In this document: positions 3,564 to 19,356 of the stretch, in pieces
Layout: each line of letters begins with the position of its first letter
Position numbering within the stretch: position 1 is the stretch's first letter
DNA from: Maribacter algarum (ex Zhang et al. 2020)
GTDB taxonomy: Bacteria > Bacteroidota > Bacteroidia > Flavobacteriales > Flavobacteriaceae
Direction: 5' to 3'
Assembly (NCBI RefSeq): GCF_005885635.1
Contig: NZ_VATY01000001.1
Location: 682,001-746,000, forward strand
Length of the DNA: 64,000 bases
Translations under genes and position numbers: made by a program
The notes under the pieces: model-generated
Databases searched by the model: none
Told to the model about the DNA's origin: nothing
The model's input: only the letters and a program-made list of their open reading frames with translations

Positions 3564-4178
3564 CTACTCTCCAAATTGATAAGTGACCGTTAGCCTAACA
3601 ACACTATTCTTGTTTTTAAGACCATTGGTAACATCGTTCGAAAGGTTAGTTACTCCTATACTTGCTGATAAATCAACATTCAAAGCATCAAAAAATTGAG
3701 CCCCAGCACCAAAATTAATACCAACATCAAGTGGTTTAAGCTCATCATTTCTGTTGCCCCCAACATTCAATTTATCATTATCTCGTTTTGCTGATAATAA
3801 AAATCCAAGCGAACTACCCCCTAAACCATATAATCTAGTACTATCGCCCAAATCGAGAAAGTAATACTTCATTTGTAAAGGCATTTCAAGATAGAGAAAG
3901 TTGAATGTCACCAGCGTATTCAAATCAAAACTAGATTTTCTCTGTGTTAATAATAATGCCGGTTCAAATGACAACTGATCACTAAAATCGATTTCATAAC
4001 CGCCCCCGACATGAATACTAAACCCTGCATTTCCGAAATCAGCAGTTAGGTTATCGTCATTATCTTTAATTAGTAGACTCGAAAAGCCTAGTCCACCTTT
4101 AGCTCCAAACTGTGCTGCAGCAGTAATACTTATCAGGCCAATAGCCATAAAAACGAATACTCTCATAGTTTTTTTCAT
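3564..4178 (-). CDS. Outer-membrane beta-barrel protein (porin family)
   Basis: A 204-residue protein with an N-terminal signal peptide (MKKTMRVFVFMAIGLISITAAAQ). The mature part starts FGAKGGLGFSS and has alternating amphipathic strands: INFGAGAQF, VDLSASIGVTNL, and a C-terminal VVRLTVTYQFGE. This is the layout of the small 8-10-stranded barrels of the OMP_b-brl family in Bacteroidetes. It is transcribed away from the histidine kinase at 4352, and the 173-bp gap between them holds the palindrome at 4275. It is a distant paralogue of the protein at 7072 (shared motifs GGLGFSSL/GGLGISNL, DVG, D-F-G-GAG/GVG). Likely a target or output of the adjacent two-component system; the ligand is unknown. 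Confidence 0.85.
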   Translation of the reverse strand: MKKTMRVFVFMAIGLISITAAAQFGAKGGLGFSSLLIKDNDDNLTADFGNAGFSIHVGGGYEIDFSDQLSFEPALLLTQRKSSFDLNTLVTFNFLYLEMPLQMKYYFLDLGDSTRLYGLGGSSLGFLLSAKRDNDKLNVGGNRNDELKPLDVGINFGAGAQFFDALNVDLSASIGVTNLSNDVTNGLKNKNSVVRLTVTYQFGE

Positions 4179-4274
4179 AATAGTTTATTTAAAATATTTA
4201 TATGTTTAATTTGATGATTGCAAGGTATTTTGAAAAGCATTTTTATGAAATCGCAGCATGGGCGTATTTTTTTC

Positions 4275-4290
4275 TACTAGTTTACAGGTA
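4275..4290. promoter_or_regulatory. 16-bp palindromic site between the OMP gene and kinase 1
   Basis: TACTAGTTTACAGGTA is preceded by a T-run and C (GTATTTTTTTC, 4264-4274). It is the first of three copies of the pattern TTTTTTC-TACTGG-N4-CMRGTA; the others are at 7773 and 13087. It lies 97 bp before the beta-barrel gene and 61 bp before the kinase gene. It is probably a binding site for the NarL-type response regulators. Confidence 0.6.
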
Positions 4291-4351
4291 TTTTTTAGTG
4301 CTTTGGGTTTGGTTTTATTCTTATTAAATATCTTGTGGTAAAATCATAAAA

Positions 4352-6352
4352 ATGTTTTCGAAATTCCATTTCTTAATCCTAATATTCACCTTTGGAATCC
4401 TCAACTCAACTTTTGGGCAAGAAAGTTCACTTGCTAAAATTGATAGTTTGAAAAACGTTTTAAAAAAAACCAGTACGTCATTAGAAAAAGCTGAAATCCT
4501 GTATCATCTTGCAGAGGCAAAATCTAATTCAGATTCAACCGAAGCTTTTAAATACAGTAGGGCTGCACTTGAACTTTTCGAAAAGAATCAAGATTCATTA
4601 GGTATTGCGCGAGCAAGAAACGTTCTTGGACTTTCATACTTTAATTTCGGAGACCCAGAAGACGCAGAAAAAAATCACAGACAAGCCTTGGAGATTGCCG
4701 AAAAATTAATACGCAAAGATTCCTCATATAAACACATGAAACTCTGGACGCATTCAAACTTCAGCATGGGAGTCAGTATGAGTATACAGGGTAAAAAAAG
4801 TGAAGAATTAGAATACTACCTTGCGGCCGCCCCCATAGCAAGAAAAATAAAAGATTATCGCATGCTGGCGATAATGAATACTAATTTCGCCATCATGTAT
4901 GTCAATAACAAAGAGTTTGAAAATGCTTATCCTTACTTCGAAGAAAACACTTCTCTCTTCAAGAATATTGAATTGCAATCAACCGAAATTCATGATAGAC
5001 TAATATTCGCTTACTGCCTAAAAGAGCTTGATTCCTTAGATAGGATGAAGACTATACTTAACAACGTAAAGGACAATTTGGCCGGTTCTTCAAATAATCT
5101 TCAAATACAATTGTATCATAATATTTTAGGCGAATACTATTCCAAAGTTGGAAATTATAATCTAGCACTTGATAATTACGCGAAGTCAAAAAAAATAATT
5201 GAAGACAATAATCTCAAATGGTATCTCGAAGGTGTTTTGGAAAATTACTCTAAAACATACTTGAAAATGGGAAATAGAGCAATGGCAAAAAAATACCTTT
5301 ATGAACTCCTCGCTCTTAGTGAAACTCTTTTACAGACCAAAATAAACGCCTCGGAGAAGCTTGCAATACTCGAAGAAGAGGATGGTGAATATAAAAAAGC
5401 ACTTAAATTCTTGAATTTAAGAAATAGTTTGAAAGATAGTTTAGATTCAAGAAATATCAAAAACGATATCGCCCAACTAGAAATTCAATACCAAACAGAA
5501 AAAAAAGAAAACAAAATCTTAGAGCTTCAAAATGAAAACAGTTTAACTGACTTGAATCTGGAAAAAAAGAAGTCTCAAAACTATCTGCTTTTAATATTAT
5601 TGGGTTCACTCTCGTTCATTTTGGTATCTGGTTATTTAACCTATAATAACCGTCGTAAAAAGGCCTTACTTAAGGAGCAGGTACAATCTCAAGAAATTCA
5701 ACAGTTAAAAGTGGAACAAGAACGCAAACTTTTTGGCGTAATGATGGAAGGGGTGGAACAAGAGCGTAAACGTCTTGCTGCTGATTTACATGATGGCCTT
5801 GGGGGAAGGTTATCAGGCATCAGTATTAAACTTTCACGATTAGCGGAAAATAAAAAAGCGGAAACCTTACTGCCCCATTTAGATGACATTTTAGGGAATC
5901 TCGATGATTCATTACAAGAACTTCGAGGTGTAGCTCGAAACTTAATGCCAGAGACCTTACTCAAATATGGACTTAAAGCTGCTGTTGAAGATTATTGCAG
6001 TACCCTTGGTGACAAAGAAACAAATATCACACTCCAATTTTACAACACTGAAAACGTTACTGATAAAAATGAATTGCTCACGCTTTATCGTATTATTCAA
6101 GAATTAATAAACAATGCCATAAAACACGCTAAGGCAACTGAAATATTAGTTCAATGTATCGTCAGTGATGATAAAATCGACATTACAATTGAAGACGACG
6201 GTAGAGGGTTTGAAGTAGACAATGTCACAAAAAAAATGGGAGTCGGACTTACTAGTCTAAAAAACAGAGTTGATTATTTGAATGGAACAATGGACATTCG
6301 TTCAGAAATCAATGAAGGTACTTCCATAAATATCCAAATTGAAAAAGCATGA
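4352..6352 (+). CDS. TPR-containing sensor histidine kinase (HisKA_3/NarX type)
   Basis: Membrane sensor kinase of 666 residues. It has a signal peptide (ending near TFGQ), an extracytoplasmic block of tetratricopeptide repeats (about residues 35-345), a coiled coil, and one membrane helix at about 410-431 (YLLLILLGSLSFILVSGYL). The HisKA_3 dimerization box is QERKRLAADLHDGLGGRLSG, with the phospho-acceptor His480. A HATPase_c domain follows, with the N box ELINNAIKHAKATE and the G box EDDGRGFEV. It overlaps the response regulator by ATGA, so the two are translationally coupled. The TPR block probably senses a periplasmic protein or peptide. A paralogue with His at the same position lies at 13181. 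Confidence 0.93.
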   Translation: MFSKFHFLILIFTFGILNSTFGQESSLAKIDSLKNVLKKTSTSLEKAEILYHLAEAKSNSDSTEAFKYSRAALELFEKNQDSLGIARARNVLGLSYFNFGDPEDAEKNHRQALEIAEKLIRKDSSYKHMKLWTHSNFSMGVSMSIQGKKSEELEYYLAAAPIARKIKDYRMLAIMNTNFAIMYVNNKEFENAYPYFEENTSLFKNIELQSTEIHDRLIFAYCLKELDSLDRMKTILNNVKDNLAGSSNNLQIQLYHNILGEYYSKVGNYNLALDNYAKSKKIIEDNNLKWYLEGVLENYSKTYLKMGNRAMAKKYLYELLALSETLLQTKINASEKLAILEEEDGEYKKALKFLNLRNSLKDSLDSRNIKNDIAQLEIQYQTEKKENKILELQNENSLTDLNLEKKKSQNYLLLILLGSLSFILVSGYLTYNNRRKKALLKEQVQSQEIQQLKVEQERKLFGVMMEGVEQERKRLAADLHDGLGGRLSGISIKLSRLAENKKAETLLPHLDDILGNLDDSLQELRGVARNLMPETLLKYGLKAAVEDYCSTLGDKETNITLQFYNTENVTDKNELLTLYRIIQELINNAIKHAKATEILVQCIVSDDKIDITIEDDGRGFEVDNVTKKMGVGLTSLKNRVDYLNGTMDIRSEINEGTSINIQIEKA

Positions 6353-6981
6353 GAAAAGAAATTGTAAAAGTTGTGGTTGTCGATGACCATCCGCTGGTCA
6401 TTGAAGGACTTAAGTCATCTATTGGTATGGATGAAACGATTGAAGTGACTGCTTGTTTTGAAAATGCCGAAGATCTCTTTGCCCATCTTAAAAGAAAAGT
6501 GGCCCATGTGGTAGTACTTGACGTCAATTTGCCGGACATCAATGGGGTTGAAGTATGTGAAAAAATAAATTCAAAATACCCCCATGTAAAGGTATTGGGA
6601 TTAAGTACCTACAATGACCCAAGTATTATCAAACAAATGGTAAAGAACGGAGCTAAAGGGTATCTACTTAAAAATGTAAGTTCTAAAGAACTGGGTATTG
6701 CCATTCATCAAATACATGACGGCTTATCTTATTTTAGCGCCGAGATTCAAAAGATTTTAGCAGATTCTATTTTTGATAATAACCGAATACCCAAATTAAC
6801 CCGAAGGGAAAAAGAGATTTTAGCACTCGTGGCCGAAGGAATTACTACACCTCAAATTGCAGAAAAACTTATTATTAGTCCGTTGACCGTCGAGACGCAT
6901 CGTAGAAATCTAATTCAAAAAATGGGAGTCACCAATGCGGCACAATTAGTCAAAATGGCCATTGAGCAAAAGTTGATTTAA
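6349..6981 (+). CDS. NarL/LuxR-family response regulator
   Basis: Cytoplasmic transcription factor of 210 residues, partner of the kinase it overlaps. The receiver domain (1-120) has the acidic pair in VVVDDHP, phospho-acceptor Asp58 in VVLDVNLPD, the Ser/Thr in LGLSTY and Lys in KGYLLKN. The C-terminal LuxR-type helix-turn-helix is LTRREKEILALVAEGITTPQ followed by SPLTVETHRRN. It is closely similar to the regulator at 15183, including the recognition helix, so both may bind the same palindrome. Confidence 0.95.
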   Translation: MRKEIVKVVVVDDHPLVIEGLKSSIGMDETIEVTACFENAEDLFAHLKRKVAHVVVLDVNLPDINGVEVCEKINSKYPHVKVLGLSTYNDPSIIKQMVKNGAKGYLLKNVSSKELGIAIHQIHDGLSYFSAEIQKILADSIFDNNRIPKLTRREKEILALVAEGITTPQIAEKLIISPLTVETHRRNLIQKMGVTNAAQLVKMAIEQKLI

Positions 6982-7071
6982 TGACAGAGAACTTTGGGAA
7001 AATCGAAAAACCCCATACCAAAATATTTCGATACAGGGTCCTTCAACTAAACTAACTCAAACTAATTATTT

Positions 7072-7665
7072 CTATAAGCCAAAACGATAGTTTGCCGATA
7101 ACATAATAGCGCCATTCGTAATTGACACTAAACTTTGTTCTGCATCAGTATTTAACAAACCGAATTCAAACACCAAGCCTATATCAATACTTTCATTAAA
7201 CCCGTAACCGACACCTGTAATCAATCCAAAGTCAAAGAATTTGAAGTCATCACCAGGTCTACTGCCCACATCTAATTTTGTGCCACTAAAATTTGCGGCC
7301 ATCAAAAGCCCTGAATACATACCAGCTCTTGCGTAAAGAATTCCCTCCGCTCCCACTTCGAGAAAATCAAAACGTGCGGTTACGGGTACTTCTAAATAAT
7401 AGAGGTTAAAATTTCCGGATAGGTTGGCTCCTCCTTTTTTGAAAAAAGACATACCCGATTGTAACCAGAACTGGTCTGAAAGTTCGAAATCTATCGTACC
7501 TCCTAAATGTGCCGAAAACACCCTTCCAAAAGTCGTATTTGAATTGGTTGATGTAATTAAATTAGAAATACCGAGGCCTCCTCTCACCCCAAAATATTGT
7601 GCCGATACCGACATACTACTCAAACTGAATACTACTACCGTTACTAGTGTTGCTAAACTTTTCAT
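7072..7665 (-). CDS. Outer-membrane beta-barrel protein, second paralogue
   Basis: A 197-residue barrel with a signal peptide (MKSLATLVTVVVFSLSSMSVSAQ) and a mature start YFGVRGGLGISNL. Typical amphipathic strands follow, ending in ANYRFGL, with the aromatic near the C-terminus expected for BAM-dependent insertion. It is convergent with the response regulator at 6349 and related to the barrel at 3564. Two copies of the TACTGG-type site lie 85-124 bp upstream, which places it in the proposed two-component regulon. No ligand or enzymatic function is visible. Confidence 0.85.
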   Translation of the reverse strand: MKSLATLVTVVVFSLSSMSVSAQYFGVRGGLGISNLITSTNSNTTFGRVFSAHLGGTIDFELSDQFWLQSGMSFFKKGGANLSGNFNLYYLEVPVTARFDFLEVGAEGILYARAGMYSGLLMAANFSGTKLDVGSRPGDDFKFFDFGLITGVGYGFNESIDIGLVFEFGLLNTDAEQSLVSITNGAIMLSANYRFGL

Positions 7666-7749
7666 AATGTTATTTTTAGTTGAATATTATAGGCCCAAAG
7701 TATAGCATATGTACATGCAAGTAAATCGCGTGAAATCTGTATTTTTCGC

Positions 7750-7788
7750 TACGGGATTTCTGTGATTTTTTCTACTGGATTTCAGGTA
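7750..7788. promoter_or_regulatory. Tandem palindromic sites upstream of the second OMP gene
   Basis: TACTGGATTTCAGGTA (7773-7788), preceded by ATTTTTTC, matches the sites at 4275 and 13087. A degenerate copy, TACGGGATTTCTGTGA (7750-7765), also follows a T-run and lies 23 bp away, about two helical turns. Both lie upstream of the minus-strand gene starting at 7665. Confidence 0.6.
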
Positions 7789-7810
7789 GAGGCTAAATCA
7801 TAGCCAATAA

Positions 7811-7842
7811 AAAAGCCCTGCCTTATTAAAGACAGGACTCTT
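7811..7842 (-). terminator. Probable terminator of the M4 peptidase operon
   Basis: AGCCCTGCCTT and AAGACAGGACT pair at 9 of 11 positions around a 4-nt loop (ATTA). The stem lies just past the last gene of the operon (stop at 7890), and an A-run on the + strand gives a U-run on the minus transcript. Confidence 0.55.
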
Positions 7843-7889
7843 TCTACAAACTAAACTCTGACCTACTTTTCTTTATATATTTTAGATGT

Positions 7890-8594
7890 TTACTGTACTT
7901 TAAAATCAAATATTTCAGATTGCGAAGTATTACCAGTCGCATCTTTCGAAATTACACGCCAGTAATAGGTTTGTCCTGAATTTGTAGAAGCGCCAATGCT
8001 GCTTTGAGCAGTAACTCCCAAGCTCGTTGTTGGATTATTACTTGTACCAAATAAAACCTCAAATTCTACCAAATCATTATCCACATCATTACCTTGCCAC
8101 TCTAAATTTACGTTTCCGGAAGAACTAAGCGTTTGCCCCCTGGTAGGACTAACTACACTTGCCGGAAAAGGGGCATAATTACTTACACCTTCGCCTTGAT
8201 TATAAAAACGCCAGGAATCACTATTTGCAGTAGCATTCGTACCATCAGATTTTGATACAACAAACCATGAGTACGGTGTATTTCTTTCAACTGTAATACT
8301 TACTTCATTAGTATTCGTATTCACAGTGGAAGAAGAATTCGTATTTAAATTGGTAATATTTACCTCATAACTATTCGCATTTGCTGCCGCTTCCCACTGA
8401 AACAAAATTGTACTCTGAGAATCACTTACAACAGTACCCTCTGTACACTCCATATTATTATCAGGAAACACCAACGTTGCCGCGGAGGGAGCACCTGATG
8501 GATCAATGTCATCAGGATTATCCTTCCCTCCGGGACAAGACGTAAGCGTGCCTATAGTTAAAACGGCGGTCAGTATTTTTACAATTCTGTTCAT
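7890..8594 (-). CDS. Lipoprotein with two fibronectin-III-like domains
   Basis: A 234-residue lipoprotein with signal peptide and lipobox near residue 20 (LTSC). Two FN3/Ig-like modules follow, at about 38-130 and 140-234. They have the marks of such domains: ILFQWEAAANANSYEVNI and LEWQGNDVDNDLVEFEVLFG, each followed by YSWFVVSKSDG or YYWRVISKDATG. Its start overlaps the stop of the M4 peptidase by ATGA, so the two are co-translated. A surface-anchored partner of the protease (substrate binding or tethering) is plausible, but there is no direct evidence of role. Confidence 0.8.
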   Translation of the reverse strand: MNRIVKILTAVLTIGTLTSCPGGKDNPDDIDPSGAPSAATLVFPDNNMECTEGTVVSDSQSTILFQWEAAANANSYEVNITNLNTNSSSTVNTNTNEVSITVERNTPYSWFVVSKSDGTNATANSDSWRFYNQGEGVSNYAPFPASVVSPTRGQTLSSSGNVNLEWQGNDVDNDLVEFEVLFGTSNNPTTSLGVTAQSSIGASTNSGQTYYWRVISKDATGNTSQSEIFDFKVQ

Positions 8595-11500
8595 TGCTTT
8601 ATAATTTTATAAGTTTCTACTTTTCCATTTATAGTAATGTACAAGAGGTACATTCCGGTTTGTAAATCATCGGCATTTAGGGTAATGGTTGTTTCTCCTG
8701 ACTCAACCATTTTCTGCATTACTGTCCTACCTTCAAAAGTGTTCAATTGCACCCCTATTTTTCTTTCGGATGCCCTACTGAGTTGAACCGTAATCTCTCC
8801 CGTGCTAACCGGATTTGGATAAACTACTACACTCGCACCTAAATCGATAGTTTCCTTGTAAACACCCTGACATTCCTTTTCTGTTTTTACGGTGAGTTTA
8901 GTACGTTCCGATTTAATAGGAAGTGTAATCTCTGCATCAGAAGTAGTAAATACTTCATCGTTCAGATTAATAATGTAGGAATCACTCCCTGATAAATTAA
9001 GAGTAACTGTTCGAGCCGTTAAATTTGTTTTCGATGAAACTCCCAAAGCTTCCGGTTCTGCAACCACAACATCAAAACAGTTTTCATATCCGGCTTGGCC
9101 TTGTACAGTTATACAGACTTTATAAGTGCCACCCTGCAAATCTGGAATCTGAACACCAGTATTCGTAAAATCTCCAGAAGCATCCACGCCATTACCTGTA
9201 ATTATTGCCGTATAACTATAGTTTGCAATGGCGGTGATTTCAATGCTTCCGTTATTACTATTTCTACAAGATTCTCCTTTTGATCGTATTCTAAAATTAT
9301 CCGCTGGCAAAGAGAAAATCTCACAACCTGTGGCATCGACCGTTGTGTTTGGTGGTGTATTCGGACACTGGTCTTCTCCATCCAATACACCATCGCCATC
9401 AGCGTCATTAGGGTTCGTTGGCCCAGCTGTTCCGATGGTCACTGTAAAATCTTTTGTTGAACCATCTTCGGCTGTAACACGATATACCACAGCATTAGTA
9501 AAATCATTTATGTTTACGCCACTTTGCTGTGTCGTACCCGCAATCGAGACCGCTGCCTTAGCAGAATTAGCAAAAGTCGCCACCAAATTTTGTCTGTTGA
9601 TATTTGCGGGAAGGTCTACGGATATTTGATTGCCATTGATGACACCTACCGCTGCAGGATTGACTACATTAAATCTAAAGTCAGTAATTTCTTTTTCACT
9701 ACTCAAAGTGCTACGCTGACCCACCGTATACCATATACCCCATTTTCCATTGGGAATAAGTTCTGAAGGATTTCCTGTCGGACTAATTTTATCCGCAGCC
9801 AGATTAATTGCCAAGATATCTTCATCACCATTATTAAAAGAGTCGAAAATCAGCTTGTCATCGGTTTTGGAATAATTCGGGAAGCCTAATTTATTATTTT
9901 GATATACCGTTCGAATATCCCCTGTTTCAATGTTTACAGCAATTACTTCATAGGTATCATCATTCTCATCAAAAACATCAAAAGCCAATACGTTTCCTGA
10001 AGTTTTTGAAAAAGAGGGGTTACCAATACTAACACCTTCCGGAAGGTTTGTAAATAGTTTTTGAATGCTTCCATCTCCGAAAGAGCTACTTTGATTATCC
10101 CAAACTTTTAGGGCCCCAACATCCCAGTAATCAATATCATTTCCGTTGCCATTATCGATACGATTTAAGGCATCGTAAATAAGATATTCTCCCGAATAAT
10201 CCCATTCTATAGCATCAGGGTATAAAACCTCTCCCGTAGTAATACCCGTATCTGAAGTAGTCGGGTTAAAGAGCTCAAAAGCCTGTGATTCACTACTAAT
10301 TAAATCCGATATATAGATAATATTACTTTGGTCATTTCGAATTGCTGCAAGTTTGGTTCCATCTTTTGAAAGAGATACCTGTGACCAGATTTGTTCATTA
10401 GAAAGCACCGTTTCCTCAGAACCGCTAGTTCTTAAGGTGACCGCATTAACCGTATTACTCTCAGTAACAAAAATTGCAAGACTACCATCATCGGCTACAC
10501 TTGGTTTGCGAAAAACCCGAGTGGTAGTCAAGGGAACAAAATTCTCTCCGTTCGTATCGGATATGTAAAGTGTATTTTGGTCAGAATCACGAATATCAAG
10601 GCTTAAGATAAAATCATCTCCACTAGCTGTTGGAATATCATTATCAGTGTCAGTACCTGTTCCGTCAGTAATACCTACAGTGTCAAAAGCAGTTTCTGCT
10701 GCTTGCACCTCAGCAGAACCTGCACCATGTAAATCAGTGGCCGACCGTAGTATGGAAAGCCGCAAATCAATGAACTGCGAAGATTTGGTAAGGTAATTAT
10801 CCAAAGCCCTATAATAGACTTGCTCCGCTTTATCCTTGCCTATTGCAGTAGCAAAGAGATAGTAGGCACGATTGAGTATACCGCTATTGATATGAACACC
10901 CCCGTTATCTTGCTCACCGGTGTAGAACTCGGACATATCCTTTGGTTGCCATCCATTTTCACCTAAGCCATTTCTACCATTATTTGGGTTTTGCATATCG
11001 CGCATAGCACCCGATGGGAAGTATTCTGTATTCACGATATCTTCGGCAAGTTTCCAGTCGTCTCGATCAATCATGGCACCAAAAATATCCGCAAAGGATT
11101 CATTGATTGCCCCTGATTGATTGCGGTATTCTAATTTGGCCGTATTTCCGATGACGCCGTGTGACATTTCATGTCCACCAACATCAAGCGCACCCGCAAA
11201 AGGTTTAAATGCCACACGACCATTTCCGTAGAACATAGCTTTACCGTTCCAGAAGGCATTTTCTAAAGCTCCTCCTTCTTCGTCACCAACATTGATAAAT
11301 GAAATAACACTGCCCCCCTGCCCATTAATCGAATTTCTATTAAAAGTCGTTCTAAAATATTCATAAGAGATATCAGCATTATAATGTGCTGAAACCCCAT
11401 TTGCATTATTCCAGGTGTTACCACTGGAGGTTACATGAAAAATCTGCACTCCAGGTTGAGAAGCTTCACCTCTAAGGTCGAGGGTCATTATTCCGCCAAC

Positions 11501-12544
11501 AGGATTATCAGGCAGTTCCGATTGCCCTGCATTGAACATTGGTTTCGAAGTATCGATTAAATAGTTTTGGGTACCATTGCTCCACGTATTTAACTGGCGG
11601 TTAACACCATTCAAATCTGCGCCACTCGTATTAGTCGGAGGCAAAGGACGTGGATTTTTCTTTTCTTTATGCTCCTCATTAAAATCATAGTGAAACGTAC
11701 AAGTATGGTAGTACTTATCAATGACCTTGCCCGTATTTGCGTCGATAAAATATTCCCATCTGTCCATAACACTAGGAAAAACGGTGATATGCCTTGTCAA
11801 AATATCTTGCCCATTTAAAGAATAGATAATCAATTCTTCCTCAGGCGAAGAAGGGGTCAGTAAATCACTTAATCTTGATTTAGCAGTTATCGTTTTCGGT
11901 AAGGCTTTACCCAAATCAATTTCAATATTTGAAAGTGCTTTATGAAATGAAATTTTAGGCGTCACGCTTTCCAACTTGGGCGTCGGTTTACTTCTGCCGT
12001 TGAACGCTTGTACCTGTCTTTTTTTGTTTAGGTGCAGCACTACTTCGCTACCGTAGACTTTAACACCTTTGTAGACCTGTTGCATTTTAATGTGTATCTG
12101 TCCTAAATCATCTACTTTTTTCGAAATATTTTGAAATTCTTCAGAAGGATTAGCAACACGAAGAATTTCTTTAATATCTTCTAAATAATTTGCGCCCACA
12201 TTTTCAGCAGACTGGCTTTTAGCCGATATCTTGGCGGGTTCTGTCGCCTTACTTTCAATGAAAACGGGAAGTCCTTCCTCAGAAGATTTCAAAACCCTAT
12301 GCTCATATAAAGATGGAGCGCCCTTCAAACTAAAAACCGAAGGCATTTGATAATTTGTTCTTCCTTTCGTAATTACGCTTTGCTTTGCTTTTACGTTTAG
12401 CTTCGAAAAATCGAAGCTTATGTTTTGAGCAGTTTTGGCTGTCGCAGTCGATTCACGTTTCTTATCATCAAAAGTGGACTGGGCATTAGTTAATAACCCA
12501 ACAAACAGAAATCCGAAGAGAAATAATAGTAGTTGTTTTTTCAT
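8591..12544 (-). CDS. Secreted M4 (thermolysin-type) metallopeptidase with type IX sorting domain
   Basis: Extracellular zinc endopeptidase of 1317 residues, starting at the ATG at 12544 rather than the GTG one codon earlier. Modules in order: signal peptide; FTP/PepSY-like propeptide (about 80-270); M4 catalytic domain with His458-Glu459-x-x-His462 (HEMSHGVIG), third ligand Glu482 (NESFADIFG) and the catalytic-His motif DNGGVHINSG; WD40/PD40-like propeller repeats (about 640-930); a DUF5018-like segment; a calcium-binding thrombospondin type-3 repeat (DADGDGVLDGEDQCP); a SprB-like repeat; and a C-terminal T9SS signal (VVYPNPVSTGEITVQL to KIIKQ). M4 enzymes are usually 500-600 residues, so the C-terminal extension is large. 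It is middle gene of an operon with lipoproteins on both sides. Confidence 0.93.
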   Translation of the reverse strand: MKKQLLLFLFGFLFVGLLTNAQSTFDDKKRESTATAKTAQNISFDFSKLNVKAKQSVITKGRTNYQMPSVFSLKGAPSLYEHRVLKSSEEGLPVFIESKATEPAKISAKSQSAENVGANYLEDIKEILRVANPSEEFQNISKKVDDLGQIHIKMQQVYKGVKVYGSEVVLHLNKKRQVQAFNGRSKPTPKLESVTPKISFHKALSNIEIDLGKALPKTITAKSRLSDLLTPSSPEEELIIYSLNGQDILTRHITVFPSVMDRWEYFIDANTGKVIDKYYHTCTFHYDFNEEHKEKKNPRPLPPTNTSGADLNGVNRQLNTWSNGTQNYLIDTSKPMFNAGQSELPDNPVGGIMTLDLRGEASQPGVQIFHVTSSGNTWNNANGVSAHYNADISYEYFRTTFNRNSINGQGGSVISFINVGDEEGGALENAFWNGKAMFYGNGRVAFKPFAGALDVGGHEMSHGVIGNTAKLEYRNQSGAINESFADIFGAMIDRDDWKLAEDIVNTEYFPSGAMRDMQNPNNGRNGLGENGWQPKDMSEFYTGEQDNGGVHINSGILNRAYYLFATAIGKDKAEQVYYRALDNYLTKSSQFIDLRLSILRSATDLHGAGSAEVQAAETAFDTVGITDGTGTDTDNDIPTASGDDFILSLDIRDSDQNTLYISDTNGENFVPLTTTRVFRKPSVADDGSLAIFVTESNTVNAVTLRTSGSEETVLSNEQIWSQVSLSKDGTKLAAIRNDQSNIIYISDLISSESQAFELFNPTTSDTGITTGEVLYPDAIEWDYSGEYLIYDALNRIDNGNGNDIDYWDVGALKVWDNQSSSFGDGSIQKLFTNLPEGVSIGNPSFSKTSGNVLAFDVFDENDDTYEVIAVNIETGDIRTVYQNNKLGFPNYSKTDDKLIFDSFNNGDEDILAINLAADKISPTGNPSELIPNGKWGIWYTVGQRSTLSSEKEITDFRFNVVNPAAVGVINGNQISVDLPANINRQNLVATFANSAKAAVSIAGTTQQSGVNINDFTNAVVYRVTAEDGSTKDFTVTIGTAGPTNPNDADGDGVLDGEDQCPNTPPNTTVDATGCEIFSLPADNFRIRSKGESCRNSNNGSIEITAIANYSYTAIITGNGVDASGDFTNTGVQIPDLQGGTYKVCITVQGQAGYENCFDVVVAEPEALGVSSKTNLTARTVTLNLSGSDSYIINLNDEVFTTSDAEITLPIKSERTKLTVKTEKECQGVYKETIDLGASVVVYPNPVSTGEITVQLSRASERKIGVQLNTFEGRTVMQKMVESGETTITLNADDLQTGMYLLYITINGKVETYKIIKQ

Positions 12545-12549
12545 CACAA

Positions 12550-12969
12550 TTATTTTATAGCTGTTCTAAGTTCTTTGTAAAAATCTTTGCACTCACTTGA
12601 AATCTCATGGTCATTTGAACCCCAAGTCACCCGATACCGTTCTTCGCCTTTTACCTCTTCCAAGAAATAATACATATTTCCCGGATGGTTAAAACTCATT
12701 TCGGAGAGTTTTAATGAATCCATCTTTTGAAAACAAGAAGTAGCTTCCTTCTTGCTAAGACTTTTGATTTCGGAATTCTCTTTTGTCAAAGAATTGTTGT
12801 AGAATACTTGTCCATTTTCCAACAAGGTATAGGTAGTTACTTCCCCAGAAATTCCTCCACCTCTGCCAAAAATCAATTGCTTGCCTGGTAATGTGTCAAG
12901 TGTATATTGTTGTGATTTACAACTAAGAAGCATTATTGAAAAAAGGCTAAAAAGGAATATAAGTCGCAT
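12550..12969 (-). CDS. Small lipoprotein, possibly an emfourin-like M4 peptidase inhibitor
   Basis: A 139-residue lipoprotein (signal peptide with lipobox MLLSC at about 17). Its stop lies 5 bp before the ATG of the M4 peptidase, so it is the first gene of that operon. The mature part has FGRGGGISGEVTTYTLLENG, a helix (SLSKKEATSCFQKMDSL), then FNHPGNMYYFLE, ERYRVTWGSND and a C-terminal helix. That order, a Gly-rich GGxxG start, a helix, a beta hairpin and a helix, resembles emfourin (M4in), a protein inhibitor encoded beside some M4 peptidases. The resemblance is of layout only; the lipoprotein and the operon are seen directly. Confidence 0.7.
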   Translation of the reverse strand: MRLIFLFSLFSIMLLSCKSQQYTLDTLPGKQLIFGRGGGISGEVTTYTLLENGQVFYNNSLTKENSEIKSLSKKEATSCFQKMDSLKLSEMSFNHPGNMYYFLEEVKGEERYRVTWGSNDHEISSECKDFYKELRTAIK

Positions 12970-13086
12970 CGGTCGTTATTTTAAAAATCGTTGATTTCGG
13001 AATAATTGAAAGCACCAATTTTATGATAGGACCAAAGTAGATAAAACCTATCCTCGAAGAAATACCCTATTGATTGTATTTTTTTC

Positions 13087-13102
13087 TACTGGTTTTCCAG
13101 TA
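13087..13102. promoter_or_regulatory. Perfect 16-bp palindrome between the M4 operon and kinase 2
   Basis: TACTGGTTTTCCAGTA is a perfect inverted repeat with 6-bp arms and a 4-bp spacer, preceded by GTATTTTTTTC as at 4264. It lies 118 bp before the lipoprotein/M4 operon and 78 bp before the kinase. TATACTTG (13131-13138) downstream resembles a -7 box for the kinase gene. Confidence 0.65.
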
Positions 13103-13180
13103 TATTGAATGTAAGGTATTTATAGTACCATATACTTGTGTTATATTGGACTTAACAAAATCAATAAACCACCATATTAA

Positions 13181-15193
13181 ATGCGTCTTTCATTACTATT
13201 TAGTGTAATTCTTCTACCCTTCTTGGTTTTTAGCCAGACGGAAAAGGAGCAATATATAGATAGCCTGCAGCAAGTACTTGAAGACCTAAGATATCTTGAA
13301 AAAGAACAACAAGATGCAGATATTTTAAATCATAAGGTCGAATTACTCTGCATCCTCGCTAGAGAATTCGACGGCATTGATTCTACCAAAACTTTTGACT
13401 TTGCCCATGAGGCCCTAAAAATAAGTAAACAGAATAAATATGGTAAAGGCATAGTCGATGCAAATTTCACCTTAGGCAGGGCATTCATGTATATTGACCA
13501 ACAAAAAGCTGAATACCACTTAGAGAAGGGCTATAAATTGGCCAATCAGCTCATTAAAAGTGATTCTTCTATTCCGTTATTAAAATTATGGGCGAATGGA
13601 ACTTATAACCTCGGACTCACATATGGTACTCTCGGGAAACACAAGAAAGAAATTGAATTTACTGATAAGATAATACCCGTTGTGAAAAAACTGGGGGATA
13701 GCCTTTTTTTAGCTAATATTTATACCAATTTAGGAGTCAAATATATAAATCTTGCAAATTACAATAAGGGTTATCAAAGCATCTACAAGGGAAGAGAAAT
13801 CTATAAATTACTTAATGATCCTCAAGAAACCACATTTAATGTTATTCAACTAGCGCAGGCTTATGAAGGTTTAGACTCTCTCGGGCAAATGAAAAAAACA
13901 TTGGCCGAGGCAAAGGTGCTCCTAGAAAAGCACCCTAATGTTTTTGATAGTTTCAATTATAACCTACAAGAAAGCCAATATTACATACGCACCAAAAAGC
14001 CTGAAGATGCCGTGAAATCCCTTGATGAGATTTTAGGTTTAGTAGAAAACGATAAGAATTCAACACTATACGGAATAGTAATGCAACGTTATTCGAGAGC
14101 ATACGAGGCGATGAAAGATTTTAAAAGCGCTACTTCCTTCACTGGAAAATATATTGAAAATTCGAAAGCTACAGACAGAGGTATGAGTTGGTTTCAAGGA
14201 CTTTATCAACGCTCTAGACAATATGCGGCAATGGCCAACTATGAGAATGCCTATAAAGACCTCTTAAATGCGGTCGATATTTATGACAGTTTAGAAACCA
14301 TAAAAACCGTTGCAAAACTTGAAGAGTTAAATTTAAAGTATGAAACTGCCCAACGTGAAAAGGAAATCCTTGGATTAAAAGTTAAAAACGAAGAGAAAAA
14401 ATCTCAAGCCTACCTACTCGGAGGTATCGCAAGCATACTTTGCCTTTTGCTTTTCGGAGGATACTACGTTTATAGCCAAAGAATGCGTAAAGCAAGAAAA
14501 AAAGAAAGAGAACGCGAAGCTGAAGTGGAGCTACTTAAACAAGAGCAGCAGAATAAAATTTTCTCTGCTATGATAGAAGGTCAGGAGAAAGAACGAAAAC
14601 GACTTGCTATTGACTTACATGATGGACTTGGAGGACGCCTTTCAGGAATCAGCATGAATCTATCCAAATTGGATAAAGATGAGCCGAAGCAATACCCGAA
14701 AAAACAATTGCAAAAGGTCATGAAAGATTTAAATGATTCCTTGACCGAATTGCGCAGTATAGCTCGCAATATGATGCCAGAAACTTTGGTTAAATTCGGA
14801 CTTCAAGCAGCGCTAAAAGATTATTGTAGCAGTATGACCGGTAGTGAAACCAAAGTCACCTTACAATTCTACGGCACTGATAAAGGAATAAATATTAACC
14901 AACAAGTGACCATGTATCGCGTGATACAAGAATTGATAAACAATGCCATAAAACATGCCAAGGCAACAGAGGTTTTAGTGCAATTTATGAGAGAAGACAA
15001 TCAGGTAGACATTACCGTTGAAGATAATGGGGTTGGTTTTGATAAAAGTAAAAGCTTAAAGCAGAAAGATTCGGGTATGGGGTTATCGAATCTACAAACC
15101 AGAGTAGCTTACCTAAAAGGAAATATTGATTTTGAAAGCGAAGAAAATGAAGGCACAACAGTCAACGTACACATTAACATCGATGCAGCATAA
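13181..15193 (+). CDS. TPR-containing sensor histidine kinase, second paralogue
   Basis: A 670-residue kinase with the same layout as the one at 4352. It has a signal peptide (FLVFSQ), periplasmic tetratricopeptide repeats, a membrane helix at about 412-432 (GGIASILCLLLFGGYYVY), a charged coiled coil, and HisKA_3 with QEKERKRLAIDLHDGLGGRL (His480). The HATPase_c domain has ELINNAIKHAKATE and VEDNGVGFD. The response regulator begins inside its last codons. It is divergent from the M4 operon with the palindrome at 13087 between them, so the kinase probably controls the protease. Confidence 0.93.
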   Translation: MRLSLLFSVILLPFLVFSQTEKEQYIDSLQQVLEDLRYLEKEQQDADILNHKVELLCILAREFDGIDSTKTFDFAHEALKISKQNKYGKGIVDANFTLGRAFMYIDQQKAEYHLEKGYKLANQLIKSDSSIPLLKLWANGTYNLGLTYGTLGKHKKEIEFTDKIIPVVKKLGDSLFLANIYTNLGVKYINLANYNKGYQSIYKGREIYKLLNDPQETTFNVIQLAQAYEGLDSLGQMKKTLAEAKVLLEKHPNVFDSFNYNLQESQYYIRTKKPEDAVKSLDEILGLVENDKNSTLYGIVMQRYSRAYEAMKDFKSATSFTGKYIENSKATDRGMSWFQGLYQRSRQYAAMANYENAYKDLLNAVDIYDSLETIKTVAKLEELNLKYETAQREKEILGLKVKNEEKKSQAYLLGGIASILCLLLFGGYYVYSQRMRKARKKEREREAEVELLKQEQQNKIFSAMIEGQEKERKRLAIDLHDGLGGRLSGISMNLSKLDKDEPKQYPKKQLQKVMKDLNDSLTELRSIARNMMPETLVKFGLQAALKDYCSSMTGSETKVTLQFYGTDKGININQQVTMYRVIQELINNAIKHAKATEVLVQFMREDNQVDITVEDNGVGFDKSKSLKQKDSGMGLSNLQTRVAYLKGNIDFESEENEGTTVNVHINIDAA

Positions 15194-15818
15194 ACCAATT
15201 AGTGTTCTTATTGTAGATGATCACCCTATGGTGATTGAGGGACTTAAGATGCTCTTAAACGATAATGATTCGGTAGAAGTGAGGACCCACTTCACTAATG
15301 GAAAAGACACCCTTGATTTCCTTGAAAAAGAAATTGTTGATGTTATTCTATTGGATGTGAACTTGCCCGATATCAATGGAGTTGAAATGGTCAAATTTAT
15401 TCTTGACAAACGAGCTACTATTAAAATTCTAGGTTTAAGTACCTATAGTGAACCCAGCATCATAAATCAGATGATAAAAAACGGTGTAAAAGGATATCTT
15501 CTAAAAAATGCAACCTCTGATGAGTTGGCAAATGCTATAACTCAGGTAAATGATGGCAATTTTTACTTCGGAAGTGAAGTACAGAAAATACTCGCAGATT
15601 CAGTGACTCAAGAGAGTAAAGACCTTCCAAAACTAACCAGAAGAGAAACACATATTCTCCGTTTGATTGCTGATGGAAAAACCACGAACATTATTGCCGA
15701 AGAGCTTTTTATAAGTCCATTGACCGTTGAAACCCATCGCAGAAACCTCATGCAAAAAATGGAGGTTTCAAATGCGGCCTCCTTAATTAAGATTGCTGTT
15801 GAGCGGAAGTTGATTTAA
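15183..15818 (+). CDS. NarL/LuxR-family response regulator, second paralogue
   Basis: A 211-residue regulator. The ATG at 15183 (MQHKPISVLIVDDHP) is chosen over one at 15126 because it gives the same N-terminus and length as the paralogue and places the phospho-acceptor at Asp58 (ILLDVNLPD). The C-terminal helix-turn-helix is LTRRETHILRLIADGKTTN followed by ISPLTVETHRRNL, almost the same recognition helix as in the protein at 6349. It overlaps the kinase gene by 11 bp. A perfect terminator lies about 105 nt after the stop. Confidence 0.94.
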   Translation: MQHKPISVLIVDDHPMVIEGLKMLLNDNDSVEVRTHFTNGKDTLDFLEKEIVDVILLDVNLPDINGVEMVKFILDKRATIKILGLSTYSEPSIINQMIKNGVKGYLLKNATSDELANAITQVNDGNFYFGSEVQKILADSVTQESKDLPKLTRRETHILRLIADGKTTNIIAEELFISPLTVETHRRNLMQKMEVSNAASLIKIAVERKLI

Positions 15819-16281: not shown

Positions 16282-19200
16282 ATGGAAAAACTACACTTAA
16301 AAAAACTAAAGCCAAAAGCGAGGGCCTTTCTACTAGCGCTATTATTGAGCATTTTGGGAGTGTCACCCGTTCTTGCTGAGCCAAATACCGAAATCGATAT
16401 TTCTAGTAGCGAAACATTTCAAACAACCGTTACGGGTACCATTACCGATGAAAACGGTGTGCCTCTATCAGGTGCCAGCATAGTAATAAAAGGTACTACT
16501 ACCGGCGCTGTTGCCGATTTTGACGGAAATTATTCTATTAGTGTTGCCTCAGATGGCGTTTTGGTATTTAGCTATGTAGGCTATGCTCCTAAAGAAATAT
16601 CAGTCAATGGAAGGTCAACGGTAAATGCCACTTTAGCACCAGATGCCTCCGCGTTGGACGAGGTTGTACTGGTTGGTTATGGTACTCAAAAGAAGGGTGA
16701 GGTAACTGGTGCGATTGAAACCGTTACAGCAGAACAACTAAGTATTGTACAAGTATCAAGTACTATTGAGGCTATCAAGGGACAAGTTGCCGGTGTCGAT
16801 GTACAAGCAACAGGTGGACGACCTGGCCAAAATCCAACTGTAAGAATTCGGGGTAGACGCTCTATTAGTGCCTCGAATGACCCCTTATATGTCGTGGATG
16901 GAATACCATTAATTGATGGCCCTGCATCAATGGCTGATATTAACCCAGACGATATTGCTTCCATGCAGGTACTTAAAGATGCAGCGGCTACAGCAGTCTA
17001 TGGTTCAAGAGGGGCAAACGGGGTAATCCTAGTTTCGACCAATCGCGGTCGAGTGGGAAAAACTAAAATTACCTATAGTGCGCGTTATGGGGTTACATCC
17101 GCAACGAGATTGGTGGATATGATGAACGGGGCGGAGTTCGCAGAACTAAAAAGAGAATCAAGACGTATCGGATGGAATGGTGCAATTCCTGCAGATACCG
17201 AAGTTTTCTTAGATCCCATTGAGTTAGAGTCCATCGCTCAGGGCAGATCTACAGACTATCAAGATTTGGTATTAGATAATGGTTGGCAGACCAATCACCA
17301 AATTGGAATAAGTGGTGGATCTGAAAACACAACTTTCAGCACCTCCATCGGCTACTTTAAAGAACAAGGTATTATTAGCAACCAAGATTTTGAAAGAATT
17401 TCAGGAAGAGTTAATGTAGATCATAAAATCAATGATATTTTCAAAGTTGGTGCCTCCTTTTTGGTTGCAAAAACTGAACAAAATTGGGGTTCCAATGCCA
17501 CCATGCAAGAAGCATTGGCAAATAACCCTCTGGGAGTACCACGGGATGCAGAAGGAGAATTGTTGTTCTTACCGACAAATGACGGAATTCGTACCAATCC
17601 ACTTAGTGAGTTGGTAGATGGTGCCTTTATTGATGAAAGACAACAAACTAGAATTTTCACACCTATTTATTTGGACATTAATATTTTGGAAGGGTTGAAA
17701 TGGACAACAACTTTTGGTCCTGATATTCGAATAGGTCGAAGGGGTACTTTTGCTGGCAGTTTGACCAACACCAACCGTGGTGGACCAGGTAGAGCTGGAA
17801 TAATCAATGTAAATGATTTCGGATATACCCTGGAGAACCTGCTAACTTATAATAAGGCCTTAACGGACAGACAAAATCTCAAGGTTACTTTACTTCAAAG
17901 TATTCAAAAGTCTCGATTAGAAGTTAATACCGGAAACGTCACAGGTATTCCTTACGAGTCGCAGTCTTTTTATAATTTGGGTTCAGCTACCGCCGGAGGT
18001 GTACTCGCATCCAGTTTAACAGAATGGGCCTTGGCCTCTTTCATGGGAAGAGTTAATTACGATTTCGATGGAAAATATTTATTCCAGGCTTCGTTAAGGG
18101 CAGATGGCTCTTCAAGATTAGCCCCTGGAAATCAATGGAAATATTTCCCTGGAATTTCTGCAGGATGGAGAATTGATCAAGAAGATTTCTTAGCCGACAC
18201 CTCGGTATCCGAGTTGAAATTGCGAGCATCTTACGGTCAAGTAGGTAACACTTCCGTTTTGCCATATCAAACTGCCGGTAGATTGGGTAGTACCGTTTAT
18301 GCTTTTGGAGAAGAGCCAGCCCTAGGTTTCGGATTGAATGAAATACCTAATGAAGATTTGACTTGGGAGGTTTCCAAAACATTTGACATTGGTCTTGACT
18401 ATGGATTTTTGAACAATCGAATTGTAGGATCAATCGATTATTTCAGAACCAATACTGATGATTTATTATTAGAGCGAGCCTTGCCTAGTACTTCTGGATA
18501 CTCCACGGTACTTCAAAATATCGGGTCGACCCAAACCAATGGTGTTGAATTTACAATTAGTGGTGGAATCATTGATAATGTTGGTGATGGTTTCAATTGG
18601 GATATTGACCTAAATATTTCAACTTATAAAGAAGAAATTACCGAACTGGCTTTGAAGGATGAAAATGGAAATCCCATAGATGATACTGGTAATAACTGGT
18701 TTATCGGTTCACCTATCAATGTATTCTTTGATTATGAAAAAATTGGAATTTGGCAGGCGAATGAGGAAGCAGCAGCACTTGCAGCAGAAAATAAGGTGCC
18801 AGGCGAAATTAAGCTGAAGGACCAGAATGGCGATGGAGTCATTACTCCAGATGATAGAATAATTCTAGGCTCAGACGTTCCAGATATTTATGGTGGATTC
18901 AATAATAAGTTTTCCTACAAAGGAATTGATCTAGGAATTTTCTTCACCTATAGATTAGGGCACATGCTACAGTCAAACTTTCATGCAGGTAACAATTCGC
19001 TTTTCGGTAGATATAACAATTTGGATGTTGATTATTGGACTATAGACAATCCCACGAATGCGTTCCCAAGACCTAATGAAAATCAAGAGCGTCCTAGGGA
19101 TGGTTCTACGCTAACCTATTTCGGTGGAGGTTTTCTTAAGCTAAGAAATATTTCATTGGGTTATACACTACCTGAATCGGTAACGGAAAAACTTGGAATG

Positions 19201-19356
19201 GATCGACTTCGCTTTTCGATATCTGGTCAGAATCTATTTTTCATTACGGATTTTGAAACCTTTGACCCTGAAGTTGGGGAAGATGAAGGAGCGTTGGACA
19301 GTGGTATTGTGCCCAGTAACAAAATGTGGTCATTTTCACTTAATGCCACCTTCTAA
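16282..19356 (+). CDS. SusC/RagA-type TonB-dependent outer-membrane transporter 1
   Basis: Imports oligosaccharides across the outer membrane with its SusD partner. The protein has 1024 residues: a signal peptide, an N-terminal carboxypeptidase-like DUF4480-type domain (TGTITDENGVPLSGASIVIKG, DFDGNYSI), a TonB box region (DEVVLVGYGTQKKGEVTGAI), a plug domain (VRIRGRRSISASNDPLYVVDG, AAATAVYGSRGANGVILV) and a 22-stranded barrel ending NKMWSFSLNATF. Its stop touches the frame of the SusD gene. LacI-type operators lie upstream, so import is probably induced by the regulon's own substrate. Confidence 0.95.
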   Translation: MEKLHLKKLKPKARAFLLALLLSILGVSPVLAEPNTEIDISSSETFQTTVTGTITDENGVPLSGASIVIKGTTTGAVADFDGNYSISVASDGVLVFSYVGYAPKEISVNGRSTVNATLAPDASALDEVVLVGYGTQKKGEVTGAIETVTAEQLSIVQVSSTIEAIKGQVAGVDVQATGGRPGQNPTVRIRGRRSISASNDPLYVVDGIPLIDGPASMADINPDDIASMQVLKDAAATAVYGSRGANGVILVSTNRGRVGKTKITYSARYGVTSATRLVDMMNGAEFAELKRESRRIGWNGAIPADTEVFLDPIELESIAQGRSTDYQDLVLDNGWQTNHQIGISGGSENTTFSTSIGYFKEQGIISNQDFERISGRVNVDHKINDIFKVGASFLVAKTEQNWGSNATMQEALANNPLGVPRDAEGELLFLPTNDGIRTNPLSELVDGAFIDERQQTRIFTPIYLDINILEGLKWTTTFGPDIRIGRRGTFAGSLTNTNRGGPGRAGIINVNDFGYTLENLLTYNKALTDRQNLKVTLLQSIQKSRLEVNTGNVTGIPYESQSFYNLGSATAGGVLASSLTEWALASFMGRVNYDFDGKYLFQASLRADGSSRLAPGNQWKYFPGISAGWRIDQEDFLADTSVSELKLRASYGQVGNTSVLPYQTAGRLGSTVYAFGEEPALGFGLNEIPNEDLTWEVSKTFDIGLDYGFLNNRIVGSIDYFRTNTDDLLLERALPSTSGYSTVLQNIGSTQTNGVEFTISGGIIDNVGDGFNWDIDLNISTYKEEITELALKDENGNPIDDTGNNWFIGSPINVFFDYEKIGIWQANEEAAALAAENKVPGEIKLKDQNGDGVITPDDRIILGSDVPDIYGGFNNKFSYKGIDLGIFFTYRLGHMLQSNFHAGNNSLFGRYNNLDVDYWTIDNPTNAFPRPNENQERPRDGSTLTYFGGGFLKLRNISLGYTLPESVTEKLGMDRLRFSISGQNLFFITDFETFDPEVGEDEGALDSGIVPSNKMWSFSLNATF

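Follow-up and report, generated by a model that had tools for sequence, protein, structure and literature searches.

The closest described systems are two-component pairs of Escherichia coli and Porphyromonas gingivalis. E. coli NarL recognizes 7-2-7 sites and activates transcription from positions -44.5, -67.5, and -77.5 (in the available part of PMC7419079), with half-sites of the form TACYYMT (in the available part of PMC4886647). In P. gingivalis, FimR activates the surface gene mfa1 via direct binding (available part of PMC1974823), and PorX does not bind the promoters of type IX secretion genes, according to the part of PMC5005315 that was available. Here, we describe a palindromic promoter element in a stretch of 64,000 nucleotides (nt) of Maribacter algarum (contig NZ_VATY01000001.1, positions 682,001 to 746,000; this whole stretch is called the window below), whose source genome comprises 5.1 Mb. 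Between 3564 and 15818 of the window lie two histidine kinases with tetratricopeptide repeats (TPRs), each followed by a LuxR-type regulator, together with two small barrels and an operon for an M4 protease that bears a type IX sorting domain. We consider it probable, on the sequence comparisons given below, that the palindromes are operators of these neighboring NarL/LuxR-type regulators, serving both activation and autoregulation, with A-type and B-type sites divided between the two paralogues.

The sequence-only reading had placed TACTGG-N4-CMRGTA at three positions. The pattern is exact in the predicted distal operator of barrel 2 (7773 to 7788, TACTGGATTTCAGGTA) and in the predicted A-type operator (13087 to 13102, TACTGGTTTTCCAGTA), a perfect palindrome common to the M4 operon and kinase 1, and the T-run reported to precede it is present ahead of both. 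The predicted B-type operator at 4275 to 4290 (TACTAGTTTACAGGTA), common to barrel 1 and kinase 2, departs from the pattern by one mismatch (TACTAG). A weak proximal operator of barrel 2 is predicted at 7750 to 7765 (TACGGGATTTCTGTGA), with the distal one 23 bp upstream of it. The reported distances of 85 to 120 bp before minus-strand genes agree with the start codon gaps (96, 107, and 117 bp), two of the three sites do lie between such a gene and a divergent kinase gene, and the two regulators indeed have nearly the same recognition helix, ISPLTVETHRRNL[M/I]QKM. Genome scans were made with sequence patterns scored against reversed controls: the motif with its T-run gave 27 matches versus 8 control matches in 59 genomes, and a 27-mer at ≤3 mismatches gave 17 versus 0 in 14 congeneric genomes. 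Across 149 genomes of the family, the 27-mer was not enriched at ≤3 mismatches (16 matches versus 24 in the controls), and its signal comes from the small number of genomes with the kinase. Both the conservation and the geometry of the motif far exceed what chance would give.

Promoters read in the direction of the barrel or protease gene have a constant order: the 16-bp TAC-N10-GTA site, an A-tract, a GGTATTT-like box, 20 nt, and TAnnTT. We tabulated 27 stretches, 3 from the window and 24 of the 30 element loci, which amount to 25 distinct promoters once 2 duplicate rows are set aside. The 20-nt distance was absent from the search pattern, and TAnnTT begins exactly 20 nt past the box in 24 of the 25, with G or T as the next base in 22; the lone exception is the kinase 1 locus of genome G006. 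Within the window, TAnnTT[G/T] has a background rate of 0.5% per position. The predicted -7 boxes of barrel 1 (4221 to 4227, TACCTTG), barrel 2 (7696 to 7702, TACTTTG), and the M4 operon (13033 to 13039, TACTTTG) are on the minus strand, each 47 nt from its site (the 7750 site in the case of barrel 2), and those of the kinase 2 operon (4329 to 4335, TATCTTG) and the kinase 1 operon (13142 to 13148, TATATTG) are on the plus strand. On the kinase side, 13 of 17 entries have TAnnTTG at a distance of 38 to 39 nt from the site. With the box set to begin at -12, as in Flavobacterium psychrophilum, the sites are centered at about -67 for barrel and protease genes and at about -59 for kinases. A-type promoters contain a second, poorer TAC-N10-GTA 8 nt nearer the start, centered at about -43.

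The nearest named relative of kinase 1 is from Maribacter halichondriae (71% identity); others are from Flavobacterium sp. ASW18X, Cellulophaga, Flagellimonas, Zobellia, and two other Maribacter, and one further Flavobacteriaceae record has 86% identity. All 13 close homologues (loci L052 to L064) carry the 16-mer, at ≤1 mismatch, in the 200 bp that precede the kinase, a result that dinucleotide shuffles yield in 0.15% of trials per sequence. This count excludes L065, a 24% partial match without the motif, and includes the near-duplicates L059 and L060. Alignment of the kinase 1 loci showed the 16-mer, the A-tract, and the GGTATTT box as conserved blocks, and the divergent neighbor varies from a lipoprotein-M4 operon to a lipoprotein alone or a barrel. 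Since the site stays upstream of the kinase, with 1 mismatch, in a Flagellimonas and a Muricauda locus that have no divergent gene (L055 and L057), autoregulation is favored as its conserved role. Kinase 1 is found in 5 of the 14 congeneric genomes, and the 27-mer (≤2 mismatches) is found in the same 5; in the 149 family genomes, it occurs in 3 of 4 with a kinase-1-like match versus 1 of 145 others, where the single match falls in an open reading frame (ORF). The proposed tie between the palindrome and the TPR-kinase/LuxR-regulator genes is thus upheld: the palindrome tracks these genes across genomes and keeps fixed distances from the predicted promoters. As a separate observation, kinase 1 of G003 (C186, L090) is apparently split over two ORFs, with one stop in the matched frame, and the operator there is kept with 1 mismatch.

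The idea of one common motif for both systems was not borne out, as the site at 4275 is a distinct, fully conserved variant limited to kinase 2 genomes. The B-type 20-mer occurs with 0 mismatches in exactly 4 of the 27 searched genomes, namely, those with a kinase 2 orthologue (48 to 100% identity; the window's own genome G000, G006, G009, and G191); at ≤2 mismatches, it is found in none of the other searched genomes, and the reversed control gave 2 matches. G006 has kinase 2 and barrel 1 at separate places, each with an exact B-type copy. This difference between A and B suggests operators specific to each paralogue. The third TPR kinase of the genome has no site in the 145 bp upstream (best, 4 mismatches), and its partner regulator has a differing helix, LSKHTIESYRKNL. 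At L063, an extra 1-mismatch copy was seen at 11518 to 11538, between regulator 2 and a 562-amino-acid predicted lipoprotein. The 7750 copy before barrel 2 had been regarded as degenerate; it is weak by sequence and yet holds the proximal, standard position, with 7773 as the distal site. In the barrel homologues of L059, L060, and L064 (two Maribacter genomes and one Zobellia genome), the site aligns with 7750 and not with 7773. Because of this alignment and the standard promoter distance, the 7750 copy is probably a real, promoter-proximal operator of barrel 2. The distal site joins an A-like left half to a B-like right half, and the tandem pair may answer to both regulators.

From the computed conservation, co-occurrence, and fixed spacing, we infer binding, activation, the pairing of regulators with sites, and a stimulus. 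A regulator dimer would bind TAC-N10-GTA, which at 16 bp has the length and the outer bases of a NarL 7-2-7 site. With its site centered about 67 bp ahead of the predicted barrel or protease transcript start and about 59 bp ahead of that of the divergent kinase transcript, the bound dimer would most likely activate the surface gene and autoregulate its own kinase-regulator operon. Kinase 1 and regulator 1 would act on A-type sites (TACTGGTTTTCC[A/G]GTA and near variants), and kinase 2 and regulator 2 would act on the B-type site. The two systems might share targets, with a periplasmic stimulus controlling the barrels and the protease; the TPR region, behind a signal-peptide-like N terminus, would sample the periplasm.

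Several observations weigh against this operator model. The bare motif lacks clear enrichment at 1 to 2 mismatches in both the window and the whole genome: at ≤2 mismatches, the window has 16 matches versus 9.2 on average in shuffles, of which 6 in 100 gave at least 16, the whole genome has 19 matches to the 17-mer at ≤1 mismatch versus 15 in the reversed control, and 11 of the 14 further genome loci listed from these 17-mer matches fall inside ORFs. The motif exceeds chance in its context, with the T-run or as the 27-mer in congeneric genomes, and not by itself. The kinase-side TAnnTTG box had no match in 4 of 17 entries. G124, which has the kinase and is 82% complete, showed no site at ≤3 mismatches, and G007, 84% complete, has gldL and lipoprotein elements and neither kinase was found in it. 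The relatives are non-independent samples, and the sets overlap: L056 and L061 have GldL coordinates identical to those of G006 and G005 and derive from these genomes or from twins of them. Finally, two operator types would not be predicted from regulators that share a recognition helix; any real specificity would then have to reside in another part of the protein or in the DNA spacer. The helices of the window, differing by M/I only, would suit a common pool of operators that both regulators bind alike, the A/B difference being drift, and so would the mixed halves of the distal barrel 2 site. We find this unlikely, given that the B-type 20-mer is invariant, spacer included, across kinases just 48 to 52% identical to that of the window and is absent (≤2 mismatches) from the 23 other genomes searched, 14 of which have a related kinase (22 distinct genomes, as the common coordinates of G014 and G192 suggest a single genome).

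Three further explanations were weighed. The block might mainly be the core promoter of an alternative sigma factor, with the palindrome an accessory and no response regulator site; the SM5 pattern TAnnTTGY at -12 to -5 (as given in the available part of PMC9723704) fits boxes like that of barrel 1, TACCTTGC, and GGTATTT-20 nt-TAnnTT recurs at gldL and at a lipoprotein gene, being weakened at gldL in kinase-negative genomes. We judge this explanation very unlikely: the palindrome, 47 nt from the box, tracks the kinases rather than the core promoter, and the boxes of the M4 operon and of barrel 2 have TACTTTGG in place of TTGY. Repression of the surface genes from these sites, in place of activation, has a precedent in NarL, which also represses, as at an ompW site centered at -18.5 (available part of PMC4886647), but the sites here lie upstream of the predicted promoters and not across them, which suits activation, and we regard repression as unlikely. 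That the palindrome works in RNA, as a terminator or a leader hairpin, is scarcely credible: the A-type 16-mer can fold (-6.5 kcal/mol) and is flanked by T-runs, but the B-type site folds at just -0.1 kcal/mol although it is invariant, the C-type site folds at -1.6 kcal/mol, and transcription in both directions is predicted to start downstream of the sites.

There are also candidates for further targets. A 33-letter element (half-site, A-tract, and box) gave 31 matches versus 1 control match in 24 genomes, 22 of them at ≤2 mismatches; most of the 31 are expected because the element was built from these promoters, those at gldL and at a small lipoprotein gene being the unexpected ones. In the M. 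algarum genome itself, the gldK-gldL gap (C1:2045912 to 2045954; L085, L150) has the same half-site, A-tract, and spacing, with 1 mismatch in the element, which is also found at gldL in G006, G007, and G009. The assignment of GldK and GldL is above the family cutoffs, and GldM, in a partial frame, falls just short. The element also precedes an 88-amino-acid lipoprotein gene (C1:1461043, L158; 2 mismatches) and related lipoproteins in G003 (L136) and G007 (L140), making a small, cysteine-containing lipoprotein of no known family in three genomes. The left half-sites at the gldL and lipoprotein elements are weak (TAAAGG and TAAGGG). At gldL, the half-site CC[A/T]GTAG is kept in G000, G006, and G009, as well as in G007, and is changed or lost in G002, G010, G012, and G013. 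No gldL element was seen in the kinase 1 genomes G003 and G005 or in G001, G004, G008, and G011, and the gaps read from named relatives had none either; the gldK-gldL element does not strictly track kinase 1. The elements in G007 might be served by another kinase-regulator pair of that genome, whose helix, SPKTVETHRMNL, is similar. It is a tentative possibility that two paralogous TPR-sensor systems with near-identical helices and separate operators bring surface barrels, a protease exported by type IX secretion, and (in this clade) the type IX motor genes gldLM under a common promoter architecture. If so, envelope sensing would set both the type IX export machine and its cargo. The element would be a concrete candidate for transcriptional control of gldLM, whereas PorX in P. 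gingivalis does not act through promoter binding.

Other matches were found outside these promoters. At C14:371685 of the same genome (L016), TACTGGAAATCAGGTA overlaps a GGTATTT box and TACTTTA follows 20 nt on; this is a candidate with its site at the proximal position, 56 bp before a 275-amino-acid ORF of no known family. The exact palindrome at C16:149404 (L003) was rejected as a target, as its T/A flanks are symmetric and it is likely a terminator; from the sequence, we take the genes directly before it to be an ABC-transporter-like operon. This symmetric repeat, of the form TTTTCTACTGG-N4-CCAGTAGAAAA, has a close counterpart at the corresponding position in G014 (C6:729547, L046), so two genera have it. 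C1:485078, where the following gene is by eye presumably PorP/SprF-like, was also rejected, having no TAnnTT at 47 nt and only TATATTT at 40 nt. The 3-mismatch match L147 lies inside a 550-amino-acid ORF, presumably GldJ-like as recognized without a family search, and matches in G002, G004, and G190 share its sequence; L155 in G184 is another 3-mismatch match.

Kinase 2 (4352 to 6352, 666 amino acids) and kinase 1 (13181 to 15193, 670 amino acids), both on the plus strand, combine TPR repeats with HisKA_3 and HATPase_c. Regulator 2 (6349 to 6981, plus strand, 210 amino acids) and regulator 1 (15126 to 15818, plus strand) each have a receiver and a LuxR-type (GerE) domain; the listed start of regulator 1 is TTG, and its true start is probably the later methionine of MQHKPIS, with homologues being listed from MQHKPI. 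Downstream of regulator 1 lies a TonB-dependent receptor gene (16282 to 19356; Plug, CarbopepD_reg_2). Barrel 1 (3564 to 4178, minus strand, 204 amino acids; Pfam OMP_b-brl_2) is a small outer membrane beta-barrel, modeled with eight strands and OmpA/NspA/OmpW-like in a Foldseek search against the PDB (predicted local distance difference test [pLDDT] score of 77), and barrel 2 (7072 to 7665, minus strand, 197 amino acids) is likewise a small outer membrane beta-barrel. The M4 operon, also on the minus strand, consists of a 139-amino-acid predicted lipoprotein for which searches gave no family (12550 to 12969), the 1,318-amino-acid metalloprotease (8591 to 12547; Peptidase_M4, Peptidase_M4_C, FTP, and Por_Secre_tail), and, as the last gene, a 234-amino-acid predicted lipoprotein with no family above the cutoff (7890 to 8594). 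The 139-amino-acid lipoprotein is conserved as the first gene of the M4 operon and is found without the protease as well; its confident model (pLDDT, 88) has moderate likeness to the Mago nashi fold (template modeling score, 0.55), and no solved relative was found below an E value of 0.5. The idea that it might be an emfourin-like M4 inhibitor is unsupported, there being no emfourin match for six orthologues at E values up to 10, and a literature search for an emfourin-type link found none.

By their domains (HisKA_3 and HATPase_c beside receiver and GerE, all above Pfam cutoffs), both pairs belong to the NarL/FixJ (LuxR-type) group, and the 16-bp TAC-N10-GTA architecture of the predicted operators is present and conserved. 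The regulators score 113.2 and 128.6 bits against the NCBIfam NarL equivalog (cutoff, 250), and the kinases score 50.1 and 35.7 bits against the FimS equivalog (cutoff, 600), the FimS matches being weak (E values of 1.3e-13 and 3.1e-9). Judged by titles and abstracts, literature searches on pairings of TPR kinases and LuxR-type regulators in these bacteria, and on gld gene regulation, gave nothing on this system. A defined operator with a fixed promoter geometry would make the regulon directly testable, and the pair would be an example from nature of regulator duplication in which the DNA sites have diverged and the recognition helix has not. FimS/FimR of P. gingivalis also has a Bacteroidota TPR-type kinase, but it controls fimbriae rather than barrels and a protease and is a separate system by the curated cutoff. 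PorXY-SigP also connects two-component signaling with type IX secretion genes, as the present systems may; the regulators here, unlike that system, have a LuxR-type DNA-binding domain. The SM5 promoters of F. psychrophilum have TAnnTTG -7 boxes and serve envelope and motility genes as well, but several boxes here end in GG, and no upstream palindrome is described in the available part of PMC9723704. NarX-NarL and NarQ-NarP of E. coli, as far as the available sources describe them, likewise pair HisKA_3 kinases with LuxR-type regulators and a 16-bp inverted repeat with TAC...GTA ends, and the NarL activation positions include -67.5 (available part of PMC7419079), like the position predicted here for the barrel and protease sites. 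The inner bases differ, being TGG/CCA here and YYMT for NarL (available part of PMC4886647), as do the TPR sensors, the envelope gene targets, and regulators far below the NarL cutoff. In these marine flavobacteria, the system is probably a genetic switch of ordinary type, and what is new is the set of genes that it likely controls.

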